Positions 5,216 to 25,740 of a DNA stretch of 25,740 bases are shown here, one piece after another. The notes beneath the pieces are model-generated. The model made no database searches and was not told where the DNA came from. It saw only the letters and a program-made list of their open reading frames with translations. The position numbers were made by a program, and so were the translations under genes. The first letter of the stretch is position 1, and each line of letters begins with the position of its first letter. The stretch is taken from positions 1 to 25,740 of IMG/VR virus record IMGVR_UViG_3300020436_000084, one strand, 5' to 3'. Source of the DNA: a virus.

Positions 5216-7161
5216 AAGAAAAGCAGTTATCTTTCGAACAAAAAGACACTGATTGGAAACTACAATCAAAAGAGATACCCGAGGAGGATATCCGCGAGGT
5301 AGCGTCAATTGCTTTGGATCAGGATTGGACACCACCCATGTCGTTCCCTGATCACTACAAAGATGCAAGCGTCATATCAATTGACCTCGAGACACGAGAT
5401 CCCAATCTTATGACACTAGGACCAGGTTGGGCGCGGGATGATGGCTACATCATTGGCTACGCTGTGGCGTTCAACGACTTCTGTGGGTACTACCCAGTGC
5501 GTCATGAAGTTGGCGGCAATATGCCTGAGAAAGCAGTGCACGGTTACATCAAGGAGATGATGGAGTGTGATGTGCCGAAGGTCATGCACAACGCACAATA
5601 CGATCTTGGATGGCTACGTTGGGCAGGGATTGAGGTCCGTGGTCCGGTGTACGACACTATGGTTGCGGCGGCTATGCTTGACGAGAACCGTCGCTGGTAC
5701 AATCTGAACTCGCTAGCGTTTGACTATCTACAAGAACGAAAGAACGAAAAGCTTTTGAAACTTGCCGCAGCGGATTATGGCGTGGACGCAAAATCAGAGA
5801 TGTGGAAACTACCAGCTAGGTTTGTTGGTCAATATGCAGAGCAGGATGCGGCAGTTACCAAACGGCTGTGGGATCGTATGCAACCCGACCTGGTGCGCGA
5901 AGAAGTCAGCAGTATCTTCGAACTTGAAACAGCCCTGACACCCATGCTCTTGGACATGCGGTGGCGTGGTGTTCGGGTAGATGAAGAGGGTTCTCGAAAA
6001 GCGCAATCCGCTCTTGAGGCGCGAGAGAAAGAGATACTTGGAGAGATAAAGAAGGAGACCGGGCTAGATGTGGAGCCTTGGAATGCGGTGTCAATCTCCA
6101 AAGTATTCGACAAACTTGACCTGTCATACCCGAGGACAGAGAAGTCTGATGCTCCCTCTTTTACTAAACAGTTCTTGGCATCCCATCAACATCCGATGGC
6201 AGAAAAGATTGTCAAACTACGAGAGCTCAATAAGGCGAACACGACCTTTATTACCAACATCTTGAAGTTTACACACAAAGGAAGAATACATGCGGAATTT
6301 CATCCTCTTCGGTCTGATGACGGCGGCACTGTTACTGGTCGTTTTTCCTCCTCTAACCCAAACCTCCAACAGATCCCAGCCCGTGACCCACAAATCAAGT
6401 CGATCATCCGAGGTTTGTTTCTACCCGAGGACGGACACAGGTGGGCTAGTTTTGACTACGCGTCACAAGAACCACGATGGCTGGCACACTACTGCGCGTC
6501 CATCAGCGGAGTGCATAGGCATCCTTCAATAGATGATGTAGTTGAAAGATATCAAAACGATGACGCTGACTTTCATCAGATGGTAGCTGATATGGCTGGT
6601 ATCTCTCGTAAAGATGCCAAGACAGTCAACCTGGGCATCATGTATGGCATGGGTGTAAACAAGATGGCTGGTGTCCTTGATACGACAGTCGAAGACGCAA
6701 AAGAATTGCTCAACGAATATCACGAAAAGGTTCCGTTTGTTCGAGGGTTGGCAACGATGGTGTCAAACCATGCATCGGAGAACGGTCAGATTAGAACAAT
6801 TCTAGGTAGGAAGTGCCGCTTTCCGCTTTGGGAGCCCAAGACATTTGGAATACATAAGCCCTTACCACTAGAACAAGCAATCCGAGAACACGGCAGAACA
6901 TCAATCAAACGAGCCTTCACATACAAAGCGTTGAATAGATTGATCCAAGGTTCGAGTGCCGACCAGACAAAGAAGGCGATGCTTGATTGCTACAAAGCAG
7001 GACACCTTCCCATGCTTCAGGTTCATGACGAACTATGCTTCAGCATAAATACAGACGATCAGGTGGAAGAGATCACGGGCATCATGGAGAACTGTGTCGA
7101 TGCCAAAGTACCTTTCAAAGTGGACTGTGCGATTGCAGATAACTGGGGGCAAGTAGATTGA
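5212..7161 (+). CDS. polA: Family A DNA polymerase with 3'-5' proofreading exonuclease
   Basis: This 649-aa replicative polymerase starts at ATG 5212 in an ATGA overlap with the helicase stop, with AGGTGGAG upstream; the in-frame GTG 15 bases earlier fits less well. The exonuclease domain holds Exo I IDLETRD (Asp58, Glu60), Exo II HNAQYDLGWL (Asp131) and Exo III YAEQDAAVT (Tyr208, Asp212), so proofreading should be intact. In the polymerase domain, motif A is FDYASQEPRWLAHY (Asp415), motif B is RKDAKTVNLGIMYGMG, and motif C is QVHDELCF (His605, Asp606). The residue equivalent to E. coli Phe762 is Leu474 (TVNLGIMYG). There is no 5' nuclease domain, as is usual for phage PolA. It is the third enzyme of a coupled primase-helicase-polymerase operon. 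Confidence 0.96.
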   Translation: MKEKQLSFEQKDTDWKLQSKEIPEEDIREVASIALDQDWTPPMSFPDHYKDASVISIDLETRDPNLMTLGPGWARDDGYIIGYAVAFNDFCGYYPVRHEVGGNMPEKAVHGYIKEMMECDVPKVMHNAQYDLGWLRWAGIEVRGPVYDTMVAAAMLDENRRWYNLNSLAFDYLQERKNEKLLKLAAADYGVDAKSEMWKLPARFVGQYAEQDAAVTKRLWDRMQPDLVREEVSSIFELETALTPMLLDMRWRGVRVDEEGSRKAQSALEAREKEILGEIKKETGLDVEPWNAVSISKVFDKLDLSYPRTEKSDAPSFTKQFLASHQHPMAEKIVKLRELNKANTTFITNILKFTHKGRIHAEFHPLRSDDGGTVTGRFSSSNPNLQQIPARDPQIKSIIRGLFLPEDGHRWASFDYASQEPRWLAHYCASISGVHRHPSIDDVVERYQNDDADFHQMVADMAGISRKDAKTVNLGIMYGMGVNKMAGVLDTTVEDAKELLNEYHEKVPFVRGLATMVSNHASENGQIRTILGRKCRFPLWEPKTFGIHKPLPLEQAIREHGRTSIKRAFTYKALNRLIQGSSADQTKKAMLDCYKAGHLPMLQVHDELCFSINTDDQVEEITGIMENCVDAKVPFKVDCAIADNWGQVD

Positions 7162-7688
7162 AGTACGAAATCATCGACAATGCGTATTCGGCTCAAGATA
7201 GAGAGAATATGTTTACTTTCGTTCGAAAGAGTAAGTATGTCCTTGGATGGGCAGACCAACACTGGGACGATGTGAATGGTCAACGCAGAATTTTGTACAG
7301 CCACTACTCTCTAGAAGACATTGAGAACATGGGCGTGTTTCGATTGCACAACAATCCCAGAATAGACGAGCTCATAAACGGCAGAACTCCAGTAAAACAA
7401 GTCATCAACTTGGCAGAACCTTCAAACACGTTCCTGCCTCATACTCATGTCAATGAAGAGGTCTTCATATATTACTGTAATCACAGATGGAATCCCGAGT
7501 GGGCAGGAGAAACGATTATATATTCTGAGCATGATTACGAAGCAGAACATGCAATTACGTTTAGACCCGGCAGAGTGTTGTGGTTGAAACGTGGGGTCAT
7601 GCACAGCTTACGCCCACCTAGTCAAGCAGCCCCTGAATACAGATTTACCTTTGCCGCGTTTTTTGCTTGTGAGCAAGAAACCGGTTAG
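7158..7688 (+). CDS. 2OG-Fe(II) oxygenase-like protein with HxN instead of HxD
   Basis: This 176-aa protein is the last gene of the replication operon. Its TTG start at 7158 overlaps the polymerase TGA; the next ATG (7209) would cut 17 residues. The double-stranded beta-helix signature is visible: LPHTHVNEEVFIYYCNHRW (H95, H97, N99), then NPEWAGETIIYSE, then KRGVMHSLRPP (His149) and Arg162 in YRFTFAAFF, the usual 2-oxoglutarate-binding position. Relatives carry the metal triad HxD...H; here the acid position appears to be Asn99, so activity or metal binding may be altered. Other oxygenases of this shape hydroxylate protein side chains or nucleobases. The location next to DNA polymerase could suggest nucleic-acid chemistry, but the substrate is unknown. 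Confidence 0.75.
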   Translation: MKYEIIDNAYSAQDRENMFTFVRKSKYVLGWADQHWDDVNGQRRILYSHYSLEDIENMGVFRLHNNPRIDELINGRTPVKQVINLAEPSNTFLPHTHVNEEVFIYYCNHRWNPEWAGETIIYSEHDYEAEHAITFRPGRVLWLKRGVMHSLRPPSQAAPEYRFTFAAFFACEQETG

Positions 7689-19470: not shown

Positions 19471-20199
19471 TTACGTCTTAATCACTGCTCTGAGTCTTGT
19501 AGAGGAAAATAACGGATCAAATGGATTGTAACCAAGGTTTAACGCTCCTCCAATATTGGTATTATTAGCATCAACAGCGATGTTGTGGTTATGGGTGTGA
19601 CTGCCGCTGTTACCAGCCGAACCACTTACCCCTAGATTAGCGGCATTATTAGAACGAGCCATGTTGTATTTAAAGTCTGTGGGACTATCACCAGGTCCAC
19701 CTCTTTGAACAGCAACCTGTGCAGTAGTGTTTATTTGAACGTCATTGTTAAACTTAACATCATTCGTAAACATCTTGTGTGTGTGCGAGGGAATCTGATT
19801 AATGTTAAGAGGATGACCAGCAATGTTACCAGTTAACCCGATGTTGTTAGCTATGGTTTGATTATCACTAAGAGTTACATGGTTCGTTGGATCGATGGTT
19901 GCAGATCCAGCTGTGCCCCCAACGTTACCATTTCCATCATTAGTACCCGAGGCTTGGAATAAAAGTTGACGACCATCAAGACTAGGTAAATTAAACGTTG
20001 TGCCACTGTTTGCATCTCCGTCTCCCGCACCGTAGGTAATTCCAATCGCGGCAAACAAATCAGCGTATGTAGTGCGACTTACAGGATCACCATTACAGAG
20101 CAGAAAACCAACGGGTATGGAGTTATGACCCCAAGGAATAATAAAACCCGGAGGAAATCCAGGGGCACCTGTAGATTTAAGAGTGCTATAATTCGTCAT
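19471..20199 (-). CDS. Phage tail collar domain protein, copy 1 (fibre tip, 242 aa)
   Basis: The ATG at 20199..20197 is preceded by AGGAGGAG inside the previous gene. The tail collar signature is near the N-terminus: GFIIPWGHNSIPVGFLLCNG (18-37), SRTTYADLFAAIGITYGAGD (42-61), TTFNLPSLDGR (67-77). The rest is Asn/Gly/Thr-rich with beta-strand and His-rich loops: PSHTHKMF and GSHTHNHNI, the latter resembling metal-coordinating HxH repeats of trimeric fibre tips such as T4 gp12. The C-terminus is TRLRAVIKT. It is likely a receptor-binding or collar protein that trimerises. It shares architecture with the gene at 20501-21238 (RATYAALFAVIG and VTFMIKT end) and is a paralogue. The two are separated only by a 103-aa gene. 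Confidence 0.88.
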   Translation of the reverse strand: MTNYSTLKSTGAPGFPPGFIIPWGHNSIPVGFLLCNGDPVSRTTYADLFAAIGITYGAGDGDANSGTTFNLPSLDGRQLLFQASGTNDGNGNVGGTAGSATIDPTNHVTLSDNQTIANNIGLTGNIAGHPLNINQIPSHTHKMFTNDVKFNNDVQINTTAQVAVQRGGPGDSPTDFKYNMARSNNAANLGVSGSAGNSGSHTHNHNIAVDANNTNIGGALNLGYNPFDPLFSSTRLRAVIKT

Positions 20200-20497
20200 T
20201 AACAGACTCCTCCTGATCTACCAAACCAACAAAAATATCGATGATTGTTTGAATGGCAGGATTTTCCTCCATAGTGCTTAGATAATTTTTGCCTTTCAGG
20301 TCTATCTCAAGACAAGTGTCTGTTTGATCGTCATACTGAATCGTATGTAAGTCTGCATGAAAGTTTTCTGAAATAATCGTATTCAAACGACCAGCGAGGG
20401 TTTCATCCATCCAATCAGGTTTTGTTTCTAAACCGAGCCAATACGTCTTGTCATCAGATCCTAACATTTTGGTTTGTGTGTTTACATAATACTTCAT
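20186..20497 (-). CDS. Unknown 103-aa protein between two tail-collar paralogues
   Basis: The ATG at 20497..20495 lies just after the stop of collar copy 2, and the end overlaps the start of collar copy 1 by 14 bases. It is an acidic, soluble protein: MKYYVNTQTKMLGSDDKTYW..., then HADLHTIQYDDQTDTCLEID and a C-terminal helix PAIQTIIDIFVGLVDQEES. No domain is recognised. Its placement between two fibre genes is where fibre-specific assembly chaperones or small fibre proteins often lie (compare T4 gp38 or lambda Tfa by location only, not sequence). The ribosome site is weak, and an inverted repeat (CTTCATG ... CATGAAG, 20492-20519) could hide the start codon in RNA structure. Confidence 0.72.
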   Translation of the reverse strand: MKYYVNTQTKMLGSDDKTYWLGLETKPDWMDETLAGRLNTIISENFHADLHTIQYDDQTDTCLEIDLKGKNYLSTMEENPAIQTIIDIFVGLVDQEESVNDEL

Positions 20498-20500
20498 GGC

Positions 20501-21238
20501 TTACGTCTTTATCATGAAGGTCACAGTTTGATAGGGTTGAATTATGTTCACTGCGTTTGCATTCGCAGATATATTGGATTGATTAAAGGATGAAGTAACC
20601 GAGCCGTTGAAATTGACACCATGGTTATGACTGCCGTTACCAGATCCAGCCGTAGATGTTTTACCAACATCAGCCGCTCCATTAAGCGCACCTAATTGAT
20701 AATGTAACTGATCAACGGGTGTGCCGCTCCTGCGAAACCGAGCTACTGTGGTATTCGCGGTAACGTCAGTTGTGCCTTGGTTAAAAGAATTGTTGGCTTT
20801 AGCAACAAGATGGTTATGCGCTGGAAGGTCTACATTTGCACTGTCGATACCAACAGCAAAATCGTCATTTGACGTTACGTTGACCGTAGCACTGCCAAAA
20901 ACAATAGTTGGAGTGTTGGTGTTAGCTCCACCACTGTCACCAATCGTATAGTTCGCATTCCCGTCCTGTCCTAGCATGACCTTCTGTTGAAAGTTTGGTA
21001 CATTGAAAGTACTACCAACTGATATATCAGACGGATCTCCATCCCCGTGTCCGTAGTTTATTCCAATTACAGCAAACAAAGCGGCGTAAGTAGCTCTGGA
21101 ATAAGCAGTGCCGTCGCAAATCAGAAAACCGGGAAGATCTGCTTGCGTGGTGGTTGTCCAAGGAATGATTGTGCCTGTTGAAAAATACCCGCCGCTTCCA
21201 GCCGCAGCACTAGCTTTGAAAGCAAAGTAGTTTGACAT
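20501..21238 (-). CDS. Phage tail collar domain protein, copy 2 (245 aa)
   Basis: The ATG at 21238..21236 is preceded by GGAGGT. The tail collar signature is GTIIPWTTTTQADLPGFLIC (22-41), SRATYAALFAVIGINYGHGD, and TFNVPNFQQKVMLGQD. As in copy 1, the distal half is Asn/Ser/Thr-rich with His loops (PAHNHLVA, GSHNHGVNF) and ends VTFMIKT, compared with RAVIKT in copy 1. The body sequences are clearly diverged in the putative receptor-binding region. Presence of two copies suggests two alternative or hetero-assembled tips, or duplication to broaden host range. It is translated in the leftward operon between the 236-aa fibre protein and the 103-aa protein. Confidence 0.87.
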   Translation of the reverse strand: MSNYFAFKASAAAGSGGYFSTGTIIPWTTTTQADLPGFLICDGTAYSRATYAALFAVIGINYGHGDGDPSDISVGSTFNVPNFQQKVMLGQDGNANYTIGDSGGANTNTPTIVFGSATVNVTSNDDFAVGIDSANVDLPAHNHLVAKANNSFNQGTTDVTANTTVARFRRSGTPVDQLHYQLGALNGAADVGKTSTAGSGNGSHNHGVNFNGSVTSSFNQSNISANANAVNIIQPYQTVTFMIKT

Positions 21239-21241
21239 CTA

Positions 21242-21952
21242 CTAGACCTCCAATAAACGCCAGCCAAAACTGCTGTCGGTATAAACTAATCCTAGTCCAG
21301 CATTTGCTGTGTCTATGGTCATGTCTGCCGCAGAACCCATGATTAGTTGGCTGTTCCGGCCAACGGTTATGTTATTTGATCCAGCACTTCCTAAATCGAT
21401 TATCCGAATGACATCCCCAAGACTAGGCGAAGCTGGTAAAGTCATTGTAATTGCACCGCTAGAACTTTTTACAAAGTATCCTTTTCCGCTTTCCATGGTG
21501 GTGTTACTGGTTACTATGGGTTGCCAAGTAAAGCCGCCGGGTAGAACTAATAGAATGTCAACTACGTTCGCGCTTGAACCGCCACCGTCGCAATAGATAA
21601 ATTTAAATGTTCCTGCGCCGACGGTTACATTGGTGCCACTACCTTGACTAATTACGACATCATGAGAGGTTGCGTTTTGAATGACATACACTTTTTCTGT
21701 GTCATTCGGACTAATTGTGACGGTAACAGAACTGCTCAAAGAGGACGTGAATTTTAGAACAAAATTACTTGCATCGACAGCGGCTCCATCTGACAAAGAA
21801 AGAGTTACATCCCCTGTGAGAGTTATTGATACAACACCAGTTATGGCACTGTCGAGAATATCAAAGTTGGTGTTAGTCGTGGTGCCCCAGGCACCCGACT
21901 GTTCACCAGTACCAATTTTTTCAATTCCAAGATTTGTGTATGTAGAAGGCAT
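21242..21952 (-). CDS. Tail-fibre-type protein with GTG-SGAWGTTTNTNF N-terminus (236 aa)
   Basis: The ATG at 21952..21950 overlaps the previous stop (TAATG). The N-terminal GIEKIGTGEQSGAWGTTTNT (9-28) is a short segment found at the start of many phage tail-fibre or attachment proteins, by analogy with a GTG-x-x-G-x-WG-x-x-TN pattern I recognise. The rest is predicted all-beta and rich in Ser, Thr, Val and Gly (VSITLTGDVTLSL, TVTISPNDTEKVYVI), with a repeated strand-turn character, and ends SFGWRLLEV. It probably builds the shaft or joint of a fibre. No catalytic residues are visible. Its neighbours are a repetitive 189-aa fibre protein and the collar proteins. Confidence 0.78.
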   Translation of the reverse strand: MPSTYTNLGIEKIGTGEQSGAWGTTTNTNFDILDSAITGVVSITLTGDVTLSLSDGAAVDASNFVLKFTSSLSSSVTVTISPNDTEKVYVIQNATSHDVVISQGSGTNVTVGAGTFKFIYCDGGGSSANVVDILLVLPGGFTWQPIVTSNTTMESGKGYFVKSSSGAITMTLPASPSLGDVIRIIDLGSAGSNNITVGRNSQLIMGSAADMTIDTANAGLGLVYTDSSFGWRLLEV

Positions 21953-22521
21953 TAGCTTACCCGATCACTCCATGTTTGCGAGGCACTCGTTGCCACACTG
22001 CTCCAGGTCTGTGTCGTCCCCTCGTTGACTTGTGTAAATGTTTCATCGGCTCCTGTATCGACAAGGTCCCAGATAACCGGGGCTGTGACAGAACCTGTGG
22101 CAGAGACACCCGTCAAGCTGTAAGTAACAGCATATTTTATGGTGCCTACTGAGGTGGTAGCAGAGACTCCTGTGGCCGCAACTGTTACAAAAACTCCGAC
22201 TTCAACGGATCCCACGGCTGTGGTTCCAGCAACTCCTGTTAAAGTCACAGTAACTCCAGTACCTTCGATAACTGTAACACTGTTGACAGACCCTGACAAT
22301 TGCTGACCTGTAACAGCGTTAGTTACATTTCCTATGAAAGCCACACTCCCTAGAGAACTGGTTGCAGCATTACCTGTAGCTCCAGTGGTAGCGTCTGTGA
22401 GAACCTGAACACTGGTCACAGAGGCTGTAGCCGACAGTCCTGTTGGTACAACTGTTACGTCAGGATTTATGCCGAGGGATGAAAACCCTCCCCTGGAATA
22501 TGATCTGTCGCCGAATGCCAT
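21952..22521 (-). CDS. Repetitive beta-rich fibre protein (189 aa)
   Basis: The ATG at 22521..22519 follows a 26-base intergenic stretch with no clear Shine-Dalgarno sequence. The sequence is very low in charge and rich in Val, Thr, Ser and Gly. A repeated element of the form TGVSATTSVGT recurs: PTGLSATASVTSVQV, LTGVAGTTAVGSVEV, ATGVSATTSVGTIKY and LTGVSATGSVTAPVI. The C-terminus contains two similar tryptophan units, TTQTWSSVATS and ASQTWSDRV. This composition is typical of repetitive fibre or adhesin segments. It is probably structural, forming a beta-helix or stacked strands. No domain is recognised with certainty. Confidence 0.72.
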   Translation of the reverse strand: MAFGDRSYSRGGFSSLGINPDVTVVPTGLSATASVTSVQVLTDATTGATGNAATSSLGSVAFIGNVTNAVTGQQLSGSVNSVTVIEGTGVTVTLTGVAGTTAVGSVEVGVFVTVAATGVSATTSVGTIKYAVTYSLTGVSATGSVTAPVIWDLVDTGADETFTQVNEGTTQTWSSVATSASQTWSDRVS

Positions 22522-22547: not shown

Positions 22548-23120
22548 TCACTGCCACTCAGGACCTCGACACCAAGCAACTAAAGATTTTCTTGTTCCTT
22601 TGGTAATCTTTGTAACTTCGTGTCGAAGATACGACGGAAAAACAATCATTGAGCCTTTGTGAGCAAATTGAGGTTCAGAAAAGGTTTCATCAGTGCCGTG
22701 GTGTTGAAAACGTAGTTCTCCTCCCTCATACTCCGAAGGATCGTTCAACTGCATCGATAAAGAAAGCTTTCGCTGTGTCCCGTCTTCTCTGCGTTGTGCG
22801 GGGTGTTCTGAATCCGTGTGAAAATTATAGAACATTCCCTCCTCGTAGATAGTGTACTGAGGAGGGGAGGTGTAGGATAGGTTGACTCTCCAGCCAGCCT
22901 CCATGTTAGCGATATTAAAATAGTGATTGCACAAGCCCGTAATCCAAGAACTTGGTTCAATCCAAGAAATAGAAGAGTCTCTGAACTCTGGTTTCAAACC
23001 TTCAAATATAGTTCCTTGTTCTGGCGTTAAGGTATCGCCAAAGTCCATGATTGCATCACAAACTTTCTCAGGAATCTTTTTTTCAAACACCCAATATTCT
23101 GAGCTTTCTAAACGAAACAT
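22548..23120 (-). CDS. 2-oxoglutarate/Fe(II)-dependent dioxygenase (PKHD-type hydroxylase family)
   Basis: This 190-aa protein starts at the ATG 23120..23118 with GAGG upstream. The facial triad is complete: FHTDSEHP (His101, Asp103) and SYLRHEVTKI (His167), and Arg177 in GTRKSLVAW binds 2-oxoglutarate. SLSMQLNDPSEYEGGELRF between them is the standard strand-loop-strand of PKHD or prolyl-4-hydroxylase-like enzymes such as PiuC. Such enzymes hydroxylate Pro, Lys or other side chains. The gene lies in the late tail operon, in a four-gene cassette downstream of the collagen-like fibre gene, which makes a virion-protein substrate plausible but unproven. Unlike the oxygenase-like protein at 7158-7688, no key residue is missing. 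Confidence 0.92.
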   Translation of the reverse strand: MFRLESSEYWVFEKKIPEKVCDAIMDFGDTLTPEQGTIFEGLKPEFRDSSISWIEPSSWITGLCNHYFNIANMEAGWRVNLSYTSPPQYTIYEEGMFYNFHTDSEHPAQRREDGTQRKLSLSMQLNDPSEYEGGELRFQHHGTDETFSEPQFAHKGSMIVFPSYLRHEVTKITKGTRKSLVAWCRGPEWQ

Positions 23121-23132
23121 GCGTCCTCAGAT

Positions 23133-23837
23133 CTATTTTTGGTGAACGCGCACTATTTTTGTAAACTCTGGGCATGTAATTTCTATCTCTCGTGTGGCTT
23201 TATAAGCCTTATGCTTTTGTAGATCTTGCCCGTTTTTCTTAACAACTGACCCAAAAACAAAATAGGTCTTACTGCCAAAAGGTTCCAAAGTAATCGTCTC
23301 TCCTGCCTGTGCGTCTCTGTAAGTGGTGAACCATTCGTCAGTATTTGGAGCCGATCTTATCACACACATCAAAGAAGAACCTTTTCTCAAATACCCTACC
23401 CGGTCTGCTTTTAAAATGTATTCCGGTCTTATCGGAGAGAACTCAGTTACTGATCCAATTGGGTGCATGTGTAACGTATGATATCCGTTCGGACGAATAC
23501 TGTGCTCTTTAGCGTTTTCCTTTTCTGGGAAAACTGTTTCAATATAGTGAGCATAGTTTCGTAAGTGATCCAAATCTAAATCGTCTTCCTCAGTCCAACT
23601 GTATGTGACATCACAAAGTCCTGAAGTCACGATGTGACAGCCAATGTTTTTTACCATAAGCGGATTAGTTGGATGTGGTGCACCTGCATCATGAGGGAAC
23701 AAAGAAATATCTTCTTTAGGATGTCTCCAGTACATGTCGTTAGCTGCTGAACCGATAGATCCTAACAAAAACTCGTTTTCAACATTTACAGTCGTATCGA
23801 AAACCCAGTTGTTGTCGCCTGAGTAGATTTGCTTCAC
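23133..23837 (-). CDS. Unknown protein with cupin-like C-terminal region (234 aa)
   Basis: The GTG at 23837..23835 is preceded by GAGGAG. The product has an N-terminal half with DMYWRHPKEDISLFPHDAGA and PTNPLMVKNIGCHIV, and a central HTLHMHPIGSVTEF containing HxH. The C-terminal region is RKGSSLMCVIRSAP, AGETITLEPFGSKTYFVFGSV, a pattern reminiscent of cupin strands (HxH...G). It ends TKIVRVHQK. It might be a metal-binding or sugar-binding accessory of the oxygenase whose gene follows 12 bases after its stop. This is an inference from strand pattern and order. No named family is recognised and no transmembrane segment is present. Confidence 0.65.
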   Translation of the reverse strand: MKQIYSGDNNWVFDTTVNVENEFLLGSIGSAANDMYWRHPKEDISLFPHDAGAPHPTNPLMVKNIGCHIVTSGLCDVTYSWTEEDDLDLDHLRNYAHYIETVFPEKENAKEHSIRPNGYHTLHMHPIGSVTEFSPIRPEYILKADRVGYLRKGSSLMCVIRSAPNTDEWFTTYRDAQAGETITLEPFGSKTYFVFGSVVKKNGQDLQKHKAYKATREIEITCPEFTKIVRVHQK

Positions 23838-23839
23838 GT

Positions 23840-24130
23840 TTATAACTCCTCTGCCGACTCCGCTTCTTGGGAAGGGTGGCTTCGCTCTGCGTTTACCTCA
23901 AACGTAGAGCCAATTATAGAGCCAGAGTTGCTTGGAGCGGAGGAATCTAGCTGTTCTTTAAAGTCAATAATCGCATTGGAAATAGCGTCTTTTGTATGCT
24001 CGATATGAACGGTGCCATCAGTATTAAGCACCGCCGTTACGCTGACTTGGTGTTCTTTTGATCCGTGCGAAAACACAGCAATATATATGTTTCCTGTTTT
24101 TACATAATCTATAATTTTGTAAGTGCTCAT
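23840..24130 (-). CDS. Small unknown protein in the tail cassette (96 aa)
   Basis: I chose the ATG at 24130..24128, which overlaps the previous stop (ATGA), over the GTG four codons upstream. The product begins MSTYKIIDYVKTGNIYIAVF, a likely beta-hairpin start, continues HQVSVTAVLNTDGTVHIEH, and then has a helix and an acidic Ser/Glu-rich tail ending AESAEEL. It is soluble and has no cysteine. It is tightly coupled to the 232-aa protein and precedes the cupin-like protein. No family is recognised. A small virion or assembly accessory protein is possible. Confidence 0.7.
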   Translation of the reverse strand: MSTYKIIDYVKTGNIYIAVFSHGSKEHQVSVTAVLNTDGTVHIEHTKDAISNAIIDFKEQLDSSAPSNSGSIIGSTFEVNAERSHPSQEAESAEEL

Positions 24131-24825
24131 TTTCTTTCCCACTGAGTGTTTCTGTAGGTGCTGGGCATCGCCGCATGGCGGCGGCTATTCAAGTTGCGTC
24201 TCAAGAGCTCGTCATTTGTAAAAGCTCGTACCGTTGGTTTCTTGTCAAAACCTCTCTTAAAAGGTATCGCTTGCACAATTGGTGTGCCAGCAGGAATTAT
24301 ATAAGAGCCATCTTCCTTTGTCACGAAAGACGGAAAGTTTACGTTCGCCTCATGCTTGTCTGTCTCAACGATACCAGACATTGGCGTGAAAAACTCCTGA
24401 TCTCTATTCAAAAGCGGCGTAAACAAAGTTGACCAACCGGGCGGAGTCTTCATATGCCAATAGTTTATAAACTTTAACGGAGGCTTTGGCAGATCAGGAT
24501 GACCCTTTATCTGCTCATTTGTGTGAGGCTCAATAACAGATCTGTCAAATTCTGTGTACCAAGACACCCCTTCACCATTATTTGAAACTACTATCTGTAT
24601 CTCAGCCACAGTGGGCAACAACCAGCCTGACACCATGGCATCCAAAACAGGAGGACATCTTTTTATCGTGCGTTGCTTTCTTTTTGTTTCTGGATGGTCG
24701 TAGTAAGAATCAAGCTTTTTGAACCAATCTGGTATCACAGATCTGGCTGGAATTGGTTTATGAATAAAATCAAACAAATCAGGCTCTGTCCGAAACAGAA
24801 CCCGTGGCTCCTCTTTAAAAAACAC
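24127..24825 (-). CDS. Phage/marine protein of unknown function, possibly DUF6065-like (232 aa)
   Basis: The GTG start at 24825..24823 is preceded by GGGAAAGG. The protein begins MFFKEEPRVLFRTEP, with PARSVIPDWFKKLD (27-40) and TIKRCPPVLDAMVSGWLLP (53-71). This combination of PDWFKKL with a Cys-Pro-Asp block resembles, from memory, the DUF6065 family of phage and marine bacterial proteins. The middle has NNGEGVSWYTEFD, then PPLKFINYWHMKTPPGWSTL and QEFFTPMSGIVETDKHEANV; the end is basic (RRHAAMPSTYRNTQWERK). It follows the collagen-like gene by one base and heads the four-gene cassette. The function is unknown; the family guess is tentative. Confidence 0.7.
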   Translation of the reverse strand: MFFKEEPRVLFRTEPDLFDFIHKPIPARSVIPDWFKKLDSYYDHPETKRKQRTIKRCPPVLDAMVSGWLLPTVAEIQIVVSNNGEGVSWYTEFDRSVIEPHTNEQIKGHPDLPKPPLKFINYWHMKTPPGWSTLFTPLLNRDQEFFTPMSGIVETDKHEANVNFPSFVTKEDGSYIIPAGTPIVQAIPFKRGFDKKPTVRAFTNDELLRRNLNSRRHAAMPSTYRNTQWERK

Positions 24826-24826
24826 G

Positions 24827-25740
24827 TTACTGCCTTTCCCAGTTGATGACCGCCTGACCGTTAGACGGGACAGTCACCGCTATCGCCTCCTGCGCGACAG
24901 TTAATCTTACATTAGTGTTATTTGTGGTTCCAGCGGAACCTGGATTTCCTGAACCTCCTGAATTTCCTGAACCCCCCGAACCACCAGCATTTGCGTTGCC
25001 GTCGGCACCAGCATTTCCCGCATTGCCGTTTGCGCCAGCACCTCCCGGATTGCCGTTTGTTGCGCCTGTGCCATTATTACCCGCGCTTCCTGCGTTTCCG
25101 CTTGAACCAGAGTTTCCGCTATTGCCAGAGTTACCAGCGTTTGGACGGCCACCGCGACCACCAGTTCCAGCATTGTGGGCAGATATACCAGAACCACCAG
25201 AACCACCCGCACCACCGTTACCAAAACTATTTACGTTCCCATCTGGACTTCCTATATTTCCTGGGTTTCCGTTTGCGCCGTTTCCGGCATTACCGCCGCC
25301 ACCTAGAGTCCCGCCGCTACCTCGTGATCCGCCGCTACCAGCACTTCCAGGATTCCCAGCAGAACCAGGATTTCCTGAGTTTCCTGCCGAACCTCCAGTT
25401 CCAGCTGCGCCATTAGTACCAGGATTACCATCATTTCCGTCAGCACCATCGTTAGCTGTACCAGCAGCACCAGCCGTTCCGCCAGTTCCTGCCGCTCCTC
25501 CGTTTCCGCCAGCACCACCCGTAGCAGTCAAATTATTTGCGTTACCAACAAAAGAGGTTGTACCTCCCGTGTTGCCGTTTGCACCAGCATTGCCATCTGC
25601 ACCAGCGTTGCCAGCGTTGCCATCACTACCGGGATTGCCTGACCCACCAGCACCTCCCGCAGTGGCACCTGTTCCAGCATTGCCGTCATTACCGTTTGCG
25701 CCAGCACCACCAGAACCGCCAGCACCACCCGCGTTAAAAT
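24827..25740 (-). CDS. Collagen-like Gly-X-Y-rich fibre protein, 5' end beyond the window
   Basis: The frame is open to the right edge; 303 residues are visible and the true start is outside. A TTG at 25531 is not the start, because the same frame continues upstream with the same composition. Nearly the whole visible sequence is glycine-rich with Gly mostly every third residue, for example GNPGSAGNPGSAGSGGSRGS, with Asn, Ala, Ser and Thr in the other positions. Seven prolines lie in Gly-Asn-Pro triplets. The last 30 residues (NVRLTVAQEAIAVTVPSNGQ and following) are non-repetitive and end INWERQ. Such proteins are either collagen triple helices or polyglycine-II lattices, as in the receptor-binding adhesins of T-even-type phages. 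It is probably a fibre shaft or tip. Lack of Lys and low aromatic content also fit a fibre. Confidence 0.82.
   Translation of the reverse strand, partial: FNAGGAGGSGGAGANGNDGNAGTGATAGGAGGSGNPGSDGNAGNAGADGNAGANGNTGGTTSFVGNANNLTATGGAGGNGGAAGTGGTAGAAGTANDGADGNDGNPGTNGAAGTGGSAGNSGNPGSAGNPGSAGSGGSRGSGGTLGGGGNAGNGANGNPGNIGSPDGNVNSFGNGGAGGSGGSGISAHNAGTGGRGGRPNAGNSGNSGNSGSSGNAGSAGNNGTGATNGNPGGAGANGNAGNAGADGNANAGGSGGSGNSGGSGNPGSAGTTNNTNVRLTVAQEAIAVTVPSNGQAVINWERQ

Follow-up and report, generated by a model that had tools for sequence, protein, structure and literature searches.

A conserved phage gene block suggests chemical modification of a Gly-X-Y tail-fibre protein by a linked 2-oxoglutarate oxygenase

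We analysed a window of 25,740 bases, the complete IMG/VR record IMGVR_UViG_3300020436_000084 from a fragmentary uncultured phage, that contains a gene block linking a Gly-X-Y repeat protein to a PKHD-type 2-oxoglutarate (2OG)-Fe(II) oxygenase. We consider it probable that this is a self-modifying tail-fibre block in which the oxygenase hydroxylates the Gly-X-Y protein, most likely on proline in the Y position. The evidence on the block is sequence based throughout and consists of the gene order, the co-occurrence of the genes, intact catalytic residues in the enzyme, an inverted proline position in its partner and co-inheritance. All genes of the block are on one strand in the order Gly-X-Y protein, DUF6065 protein, a protein of about 100 amino acids, an orphan protein, 2OG oxygenase and tail genes, as follows.

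24827..25738, minus strand: Gly-X-Y tail- or fibre-type protein rich in Gly-Asn-Pro/Ala; C-terminal 303 amino acids, with the 5' end off the contig
24127..24825, minus strand: DUF6065 gene (PF19541, phrog_7084), always present at the centre of the block, with a dUTPase-like beta-clip fold predicted for its product
23840..24142, minus strand: protein of 95-100 amino acids, retained in the window's clade at 36-74% identity
23133..23837, minus strand: orphan protein of 234 amino acids, retained in the window's clade
22548..23120, minus strand: PKHD-type 2OG-Fe(II) oxygenase (PF13640, phrog_61)
22812..22820, minus strand: Fe-binding HxD of the oxygenase (His101, Asp103), in 49/49 non-redundant block enzymes
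22620..22622, minus strand: Fe-binding His167 of the oxygenase, in 49/49 non-redundant block enzymes
22590..22592, minus strand: 2OG-binding Arg177 of the oxygenase, in 49/49 non-redundant block enzymes
19471..22521, minus strand: downstream tail-fibre module with a 189-amino-acid repeat protein and a 236-amino-acid tail-fibre-like protein

A preliminary description of this DNA had reported a Gly-X-Y protein with seven Gly-Asn-Pro triplets and most of its prolines at Y. Both statements were confirmed; Y is the position at which hydroxylases of animal collagens act. The open reading frame (ORF) contains 70 triplets in runs of at least four, compared with a mean of 12 and a maximum of 29 in shuffled sequences, the motif GNPG occurs seven times and GPxG not at all, and nine of the ten prolines lie two residues after a Gly. 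The proline codons are mixed (CCC, CCT, CCA and CCG), so the tract is not a simple DNA repeat, and DNA-level repeat expansion was ruled out as the origin of Gly-Asn-Pro. The gene is truncated by the contig edge; full-length proteins in close relatives have 480-503 amino acids and conserved beta-type ends (L003:3839-5317, 492 amino acids; L009, L010 and L011; L numbers denote loci).

A DUF6065 profile search of IMG/VR returned 80 loci, and neighbours were counted only at loci with enough flanking sequence on the contig. A Gly-X-Y gene was found directly upstream of DUF6065 in 67 of the 69 testable loci, rising to 69 of 69 after correction at L100 and L106, where the DUF6065 start had been called too long. 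Downstream of DUF6065, a 2OG gene was present in 72/72 loci, mostly touching or overlapping its neighbour (gaps of 0 to -18 base pairs). The co-occurrence in relatives that the preliminary description had looked to was thus observed, and no oxygenase without a Gly-X-Y gene was seen in this DUF6065-linked group. Because near-identical loci were frequent in this collection, residues and distances were tested on 49 non-redundant pairs. Distances among DUF6065 proteins and among their 2OG partners co-vary in this set (Mantel r 0.77; permutation maximum 0.15). When viral Gly-X-Y loci were sampled neutrally, any such 2OG gene was present in the fetched DNA of 5 of 79, one of the five being the block itself (L226). 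As for the intervening genes, once proposed as helpers, DUF6065 is a constant partner, and the 100-amino-acid gene and the orphan are mostly confined to the window's clade.

The downstream oxygenase had been described as carrying an intact HxD...H...R set, and we found the same. It matches PF13640 (E 1.1e-15, 58.8 bits, cut-off 27) and phrog_61 (E 3.5e-38), and H101, D103, H167 and R177 are intact in the window and invariant in the 49 non-redundant pairs. The nearest solved structures include PKHD hydroxylases and prolyl 4-hydroxylases, with most of the length matched. The best sequence match is to the YbiX/PiuC PKHD hydroxylases (3dkq, 9ghl), cellular enzymes linked to iron uptake, which share the His-Asp-His-Arg set. 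Scores below both NCBIfam equivalog cut-offs (60.5 vs 143 bits and 34.5 vs 399 bits) indicate an enzyme that is related to YbiX/PiuC and an equivalog of neither. PKHD enzymes bind 2OG by Arg and collagen prolyl 4-hydroxylases by Lys. Since all 49 block enzymes have Arg in place of the Lys of the canonical collagen type, we do not class the oxygenase as a canonical collagen prolyl 4-hydroxylase; judged from these residues it is PKHD-type. PHD2 also uses Arg, so this residue is compatible with prolyl hydroxylation.

The position of proline was compared between 44 non-redundant Gly-X-Y proteins of the block (6,140 triplets) and a control of 50 proteins with at least three prolines from viral Gly-X-Y loci, which were collected by a DNA pattern blind to X and Y. 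Block proteins have 930 prolines at Y and 111 at X, and Y is favoured in 43/44. The controls show the reverse, with 742 at X and 183 at Y and a preference for Y in 5/50 (Y-favouring proteins, block vs control: Fisher P=6e-20). L226, which came from the neutral sample, has the block pattern (PX 0.00, PY 0.16). Non-animal collagens are reported to have no preference for Pro at Y, which has been put down to a missing prolyl hydroxylase in bacteria and viruses (PMC3368898; PMC8968730). On a tree of 70 phage 2OG enzymes, X-proline and Y-proline partners are separated by two changes, compared with a mean of 13.5 and a minimum of 9 in shuffles. Thus, the enzyme lineage tracks the proline position of its partner.

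Several points weigh against Y-proline hydroxylation by the block enzyme. The control sample was chosen by long perfect GG-codon runs and the block sample was not. The preference for proline at Y could have purely structural grounds in this type of repeat. A sister 2OG clade adjoins collagen-like phage proteins with prolines nearly all at X (L035, L044, L055, L059, L065, L073, L090, L093 and L096), so the 2OG family need not be specific for Y-proline; the window oxygenase is itself nearest to this X-proline clade, with moderate support (88 in the Shimodaira-Hasegawa-like approximate likelihood ratio test), though its partner has Y-prolines. Distant relatives of the oxygenase occur without Gly-X-Y genes, for example in cultured cyanophages, as does distant DUF6065 in haloviruses, rhizobial plasmids and five bacterial genomes. 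The Gly-X-Y/DUF6065/2OG block was found neither in these DUF6065-bearing haloviruses, plasmids and bacterial genomes nor in cyanophages S-RIM4 and syn9, which also carry DUF6065, and the complete block was absent from the cultured phages of the collection searched.

Asn at X sets the block apart no less than Pro at Y does, and the target could therefore be Asn. X is occupied by Asn in 36% of triplets in block proteins and in 1.7% in controls, 679 of about 950 Y-prolines directly follow an Asn, and asparaginyl hydroxylase-like genes are known from cyanophages (PMC3037559). Nevertheless, asparaginyl hydroxylation at X in place of prolyl hydroxylation seems quite unlikely to us, given that the closest solved relatives of the oxygenase are PKHD and prolyl hydroxylases and not FIH or AspH types, and that a structural role in polyglycine-II bundles would also account for the richness in Asn.

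Another reading is that the oxygenase acts on some other fibre, tail or host component and is merely co-located in the tail module, the Y-proline being structural. In marine phages, 2OG genes are often located in the tail module. Those in the fibre regions of cyanophages adjoin Gly-rich proteins in which GXY runs are few or absent, and such a region of L004 contains about seven 2OG-like genes together with a halogenase. The linkage in 72/72 loci, the near-zero gaps and a phylogeny that tracks the proline position of the partner exceed what co-location alone predicts, and we regard this reading as unlikely. Cyanophage 2OG oxygenases have also been assigned to 2OG metabolism (PMC3037559), which would make the block enzyme an auxiliary metabolic enzyme altering the 2-oxoglutarate level or nitrogen signalling of the host. 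Here, the gene order is tied to a structural gene and DUF6065 and not to metabolic genes, making this role very improbable.

We also considered the fold of the repeat protein, which the preliminary description had called collagen-like. Against the collagen model PF01391 the window protein scored 15.6 bits and the full-length L003 protein 27.0 bits, both under the cut-off of 27.2. PDB sequence searches with the Gly-X-Y proteins returned animal collagens, and these were not used as evidence because any Gly-X-Y sequence would give them. An AlphaFold2 monomer of a full-length relative had terminal beta strands only and a mean predicted local distance difference test (pLDDT) score of 36, and gave no usable model. 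Gly occupies 33% of X and Y slots in block proteins and 3% in control viral Gly-X-Y proteins, and Gly-rich X/Y positions weaken triple helices. The Gly-X-Y register of the earlier label stands, and the abundance of Gly and Asn at X and Y speaks against an ordinary collagen triple helix; by its composition the protein is not clearly a collagen. For the fibre repeat, we consider a polyglycine-II-type bundle no less likely than a collagen triple helix; in both folds, extended helices would be favoured by hydroxyproline. The termini resemble those of Gly-rich phage adhesins, including an N-terminal FNSSGTFxVPxG-like motif. S16 gp38 is a Gly-rich phage adhesin of the polyglycine-II type, and the Gly_rich_2/S16 gp38 adhesins are like the block fibre in being Gly-rich tail-tip proteins with beta termini and this motif. 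The block fibre is unlike them in keeping strictly to the GXY register where they have GG runs, and the Gly_rich_2 profile (PF21722) did not match the full-length L003 protein at E<=1.

The DUF6065-like gene of the preliminary description was upheld by PF19541 (29.0 bits, cut-off 26.6) and phrog_7084 (E 5e-54). An AlphaFold2 model from 46 sequences had a pLDDT of 93.6, and its best PDB matches were dUTPases with partial coverage (E 8e-5; template modelling score 0.76 by target and 0.42 by query). Viral matches likewise pointed to dUTPases, and we predict a dUTPase-like beta-clip fold. Of the dUTPase catalytic motifs 1-5, inspection by eye found only incomplete resemblances to motifs 3 and 4 (SGIVETD, GTPIVQAIPF). 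dUTPases with this fold are trimers, which makes a role for DUF6065 in the assembly of fibre chains an attractive suggestion. DUF6065 was not named in any paper of the non-subscription literature searched. Homologues occur without the block, so DUF6065 by itself is no marker of the system, and we rejected it as one. Rhizobial plasmids often carry a homologue (104 records), which shares about 43% identity with the phage protein; at the two Sinorhizobium plasmid loci read (L303 and L304), Gly-X-Y and 2OG neighbours were absent.

From the material above we infer the enzyme-substrate relation, the target residue, the chemistry and the purpose as follows. The Gly-X-Y protein would belong to the tail module as a fibre or tail-tip protein, and the linked oxygenase would hydroxylate it during assembly. 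The most likely target would be the Y-position proline of Gly-Asn-Pro or Gly-X-Pro, the main alternative residue being Asn at X. Hydroxylation may stiffen or stabilise polyproline- or polyglycine-type helices or tune receptor contact, and DUF6065 is probably an assembly or presentation factor for fibre chains. A phage that hydroxylates its own fibre had been proposed from the outset; the pairing is now far better supported, by a gene order kept across dozens of divergent phages, invariant residues and the bias of proline towards Y, and the hydroxylation itself would follow from that pairing. A more specific version is possible, if doubtful: a widespread and hitherto uncharacterised phage system in which a dedicated oxygenase introduces hydroxyproline or hydroxyasparagine into a tail-tip bundle that consists of Gly-Asn-Pro/Ala repeats and is of the polyglycine-II type, not collagenous, and in which a protein with the dUTPase fold has been recruited as a trimer-forming assembly factor.

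Some features of the block are found in known systems. The prolyl 4-hydroxylase of Bacillus anthracis (3itq, 5hv0) matched the phage enzyme by profile over nearly the full length. Its presumed partners are collagen-like exosporium proteins such as BclA, it uses Lys, and to our knowledge it has no fixed operon with its substrate. The Bacillus system differs from the block in not being viral and in having Lys where the phage enzymes have Arg. The enzyme, a prokaryotic 2OG oxygenase, is believed to modify Gly-X-Y proteins (PMC8968730). The collagen-like tail fibres of E. coli prophages of the EPclA type have Gly-X-Y repeats (PMC3368898). These have Pro at X, charged residues and no hydroxylase, whereas the block has Pro at Y, Asn at X and Gly-rich X/Y positions. 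In Mimivirus, collagen is modified by a viral lysyl hydroxylase/glucosyltransferase. This eukaryotic giant virus differs from the phage block in its lysine chemistry and in its enzyme family. For the chlorella virus PBCV-1 we know of no linked Gly-X-Y fibre block; it resembles the phage block in encoding a prolyl hydroxylase and differs in being a eukaryotic virus. PMC9546862 presents Mimivirus as a virus that modifies its own collagen-like proteins, and PMC9301287 credits Eriksson et al. 1999, on the PBCV-1 prolyl 4-hydroxylase, with evidence for hydroxyproline in viral proteins. No description of a phage hydroxylating a collagen-like fibre was found in our searches of the non-subscription literature.

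Six contigs share the order Gly-X-Y, DUF6065, 100-amino-acid gene, orphan, in some cases a Coq4-like gene, 2OG and tail genes (IMG/VR 3300033122_000198, 3300006916_002998, 3300020401_000078, 3300020409_000283, 3300020420_000003 and 3300047459_000347), two of them ending inside the block. In a seventh relative, L021 (3300031785_001616), the core of this order is preserved. The Coq4-like gene (PF05019, E 1e-11), an odd member of a phage tail-module operon, lies between orphan and oxygenase in close relatives (L003:6972-7727; also L009, L010, L011, L012 and L021). The window has no such gene, its orphan and oxygenase being separated by 12 base pairs (23121-23132). Since the gene is present in six related contigs and absent from the window, we rejected it as a core part of the block. 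The 95-100-amino-acid protein had no family match in Pfam and phrog profile searches. The label 'cupin-like' for the orphan was dropped, as the protein had no match in Pfam, NCBIfam or the PDB; its relatives are almost confined to the window's clade. The tail-fibre module also contains two PF07484 tail-collar proteins with a small ORF between them. Outside this module a second 2OG-like ORF (7158-7688, plus strand), which the preliminary description did not list, scored under the cut-offs of PF13640 (22.8 bits) and of an NCBIfam FlmC-type 2OG model (E 8e-12).

Other loci carry several 2OG genes. L004:2781-8660 has its small 2OG-like genes and a tryptophan-halogenase homologue (PF04820, E 2e-91) directly after a Gly_rich_2 adhesin (E 7.7e-16), and cyanophage syn9 (L017) has a similar region that includes a divergent DUF6065-like gene. 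Cyanophages S-RSM4 and P-RSM4 (L307, L308) have several 2OG genes, one annotated as leprecan-like, next to fibre-region proteins with 32-33% Gly and few Gly-X-Y triplets.

Viral 'P4HA'-type genes are abundant auxiliary genes in aquatic viromes, and their use to the virus has been called cryptic (PMC9301287). The conserved block and its matched substrate signature lead to one testable statement, that phages hydroxylate their own fibres. This would contradict the view that collagens of bacteria and phages manage without hydroxylation of Y-position proline (PMC3368898), and the block may offer a compact enzyme-substrate pair for producing hydroxylated repeat proteins in bacteria. The pattern across these genomes suggests that many uncultured phages with the block modify their own fibres chemically.

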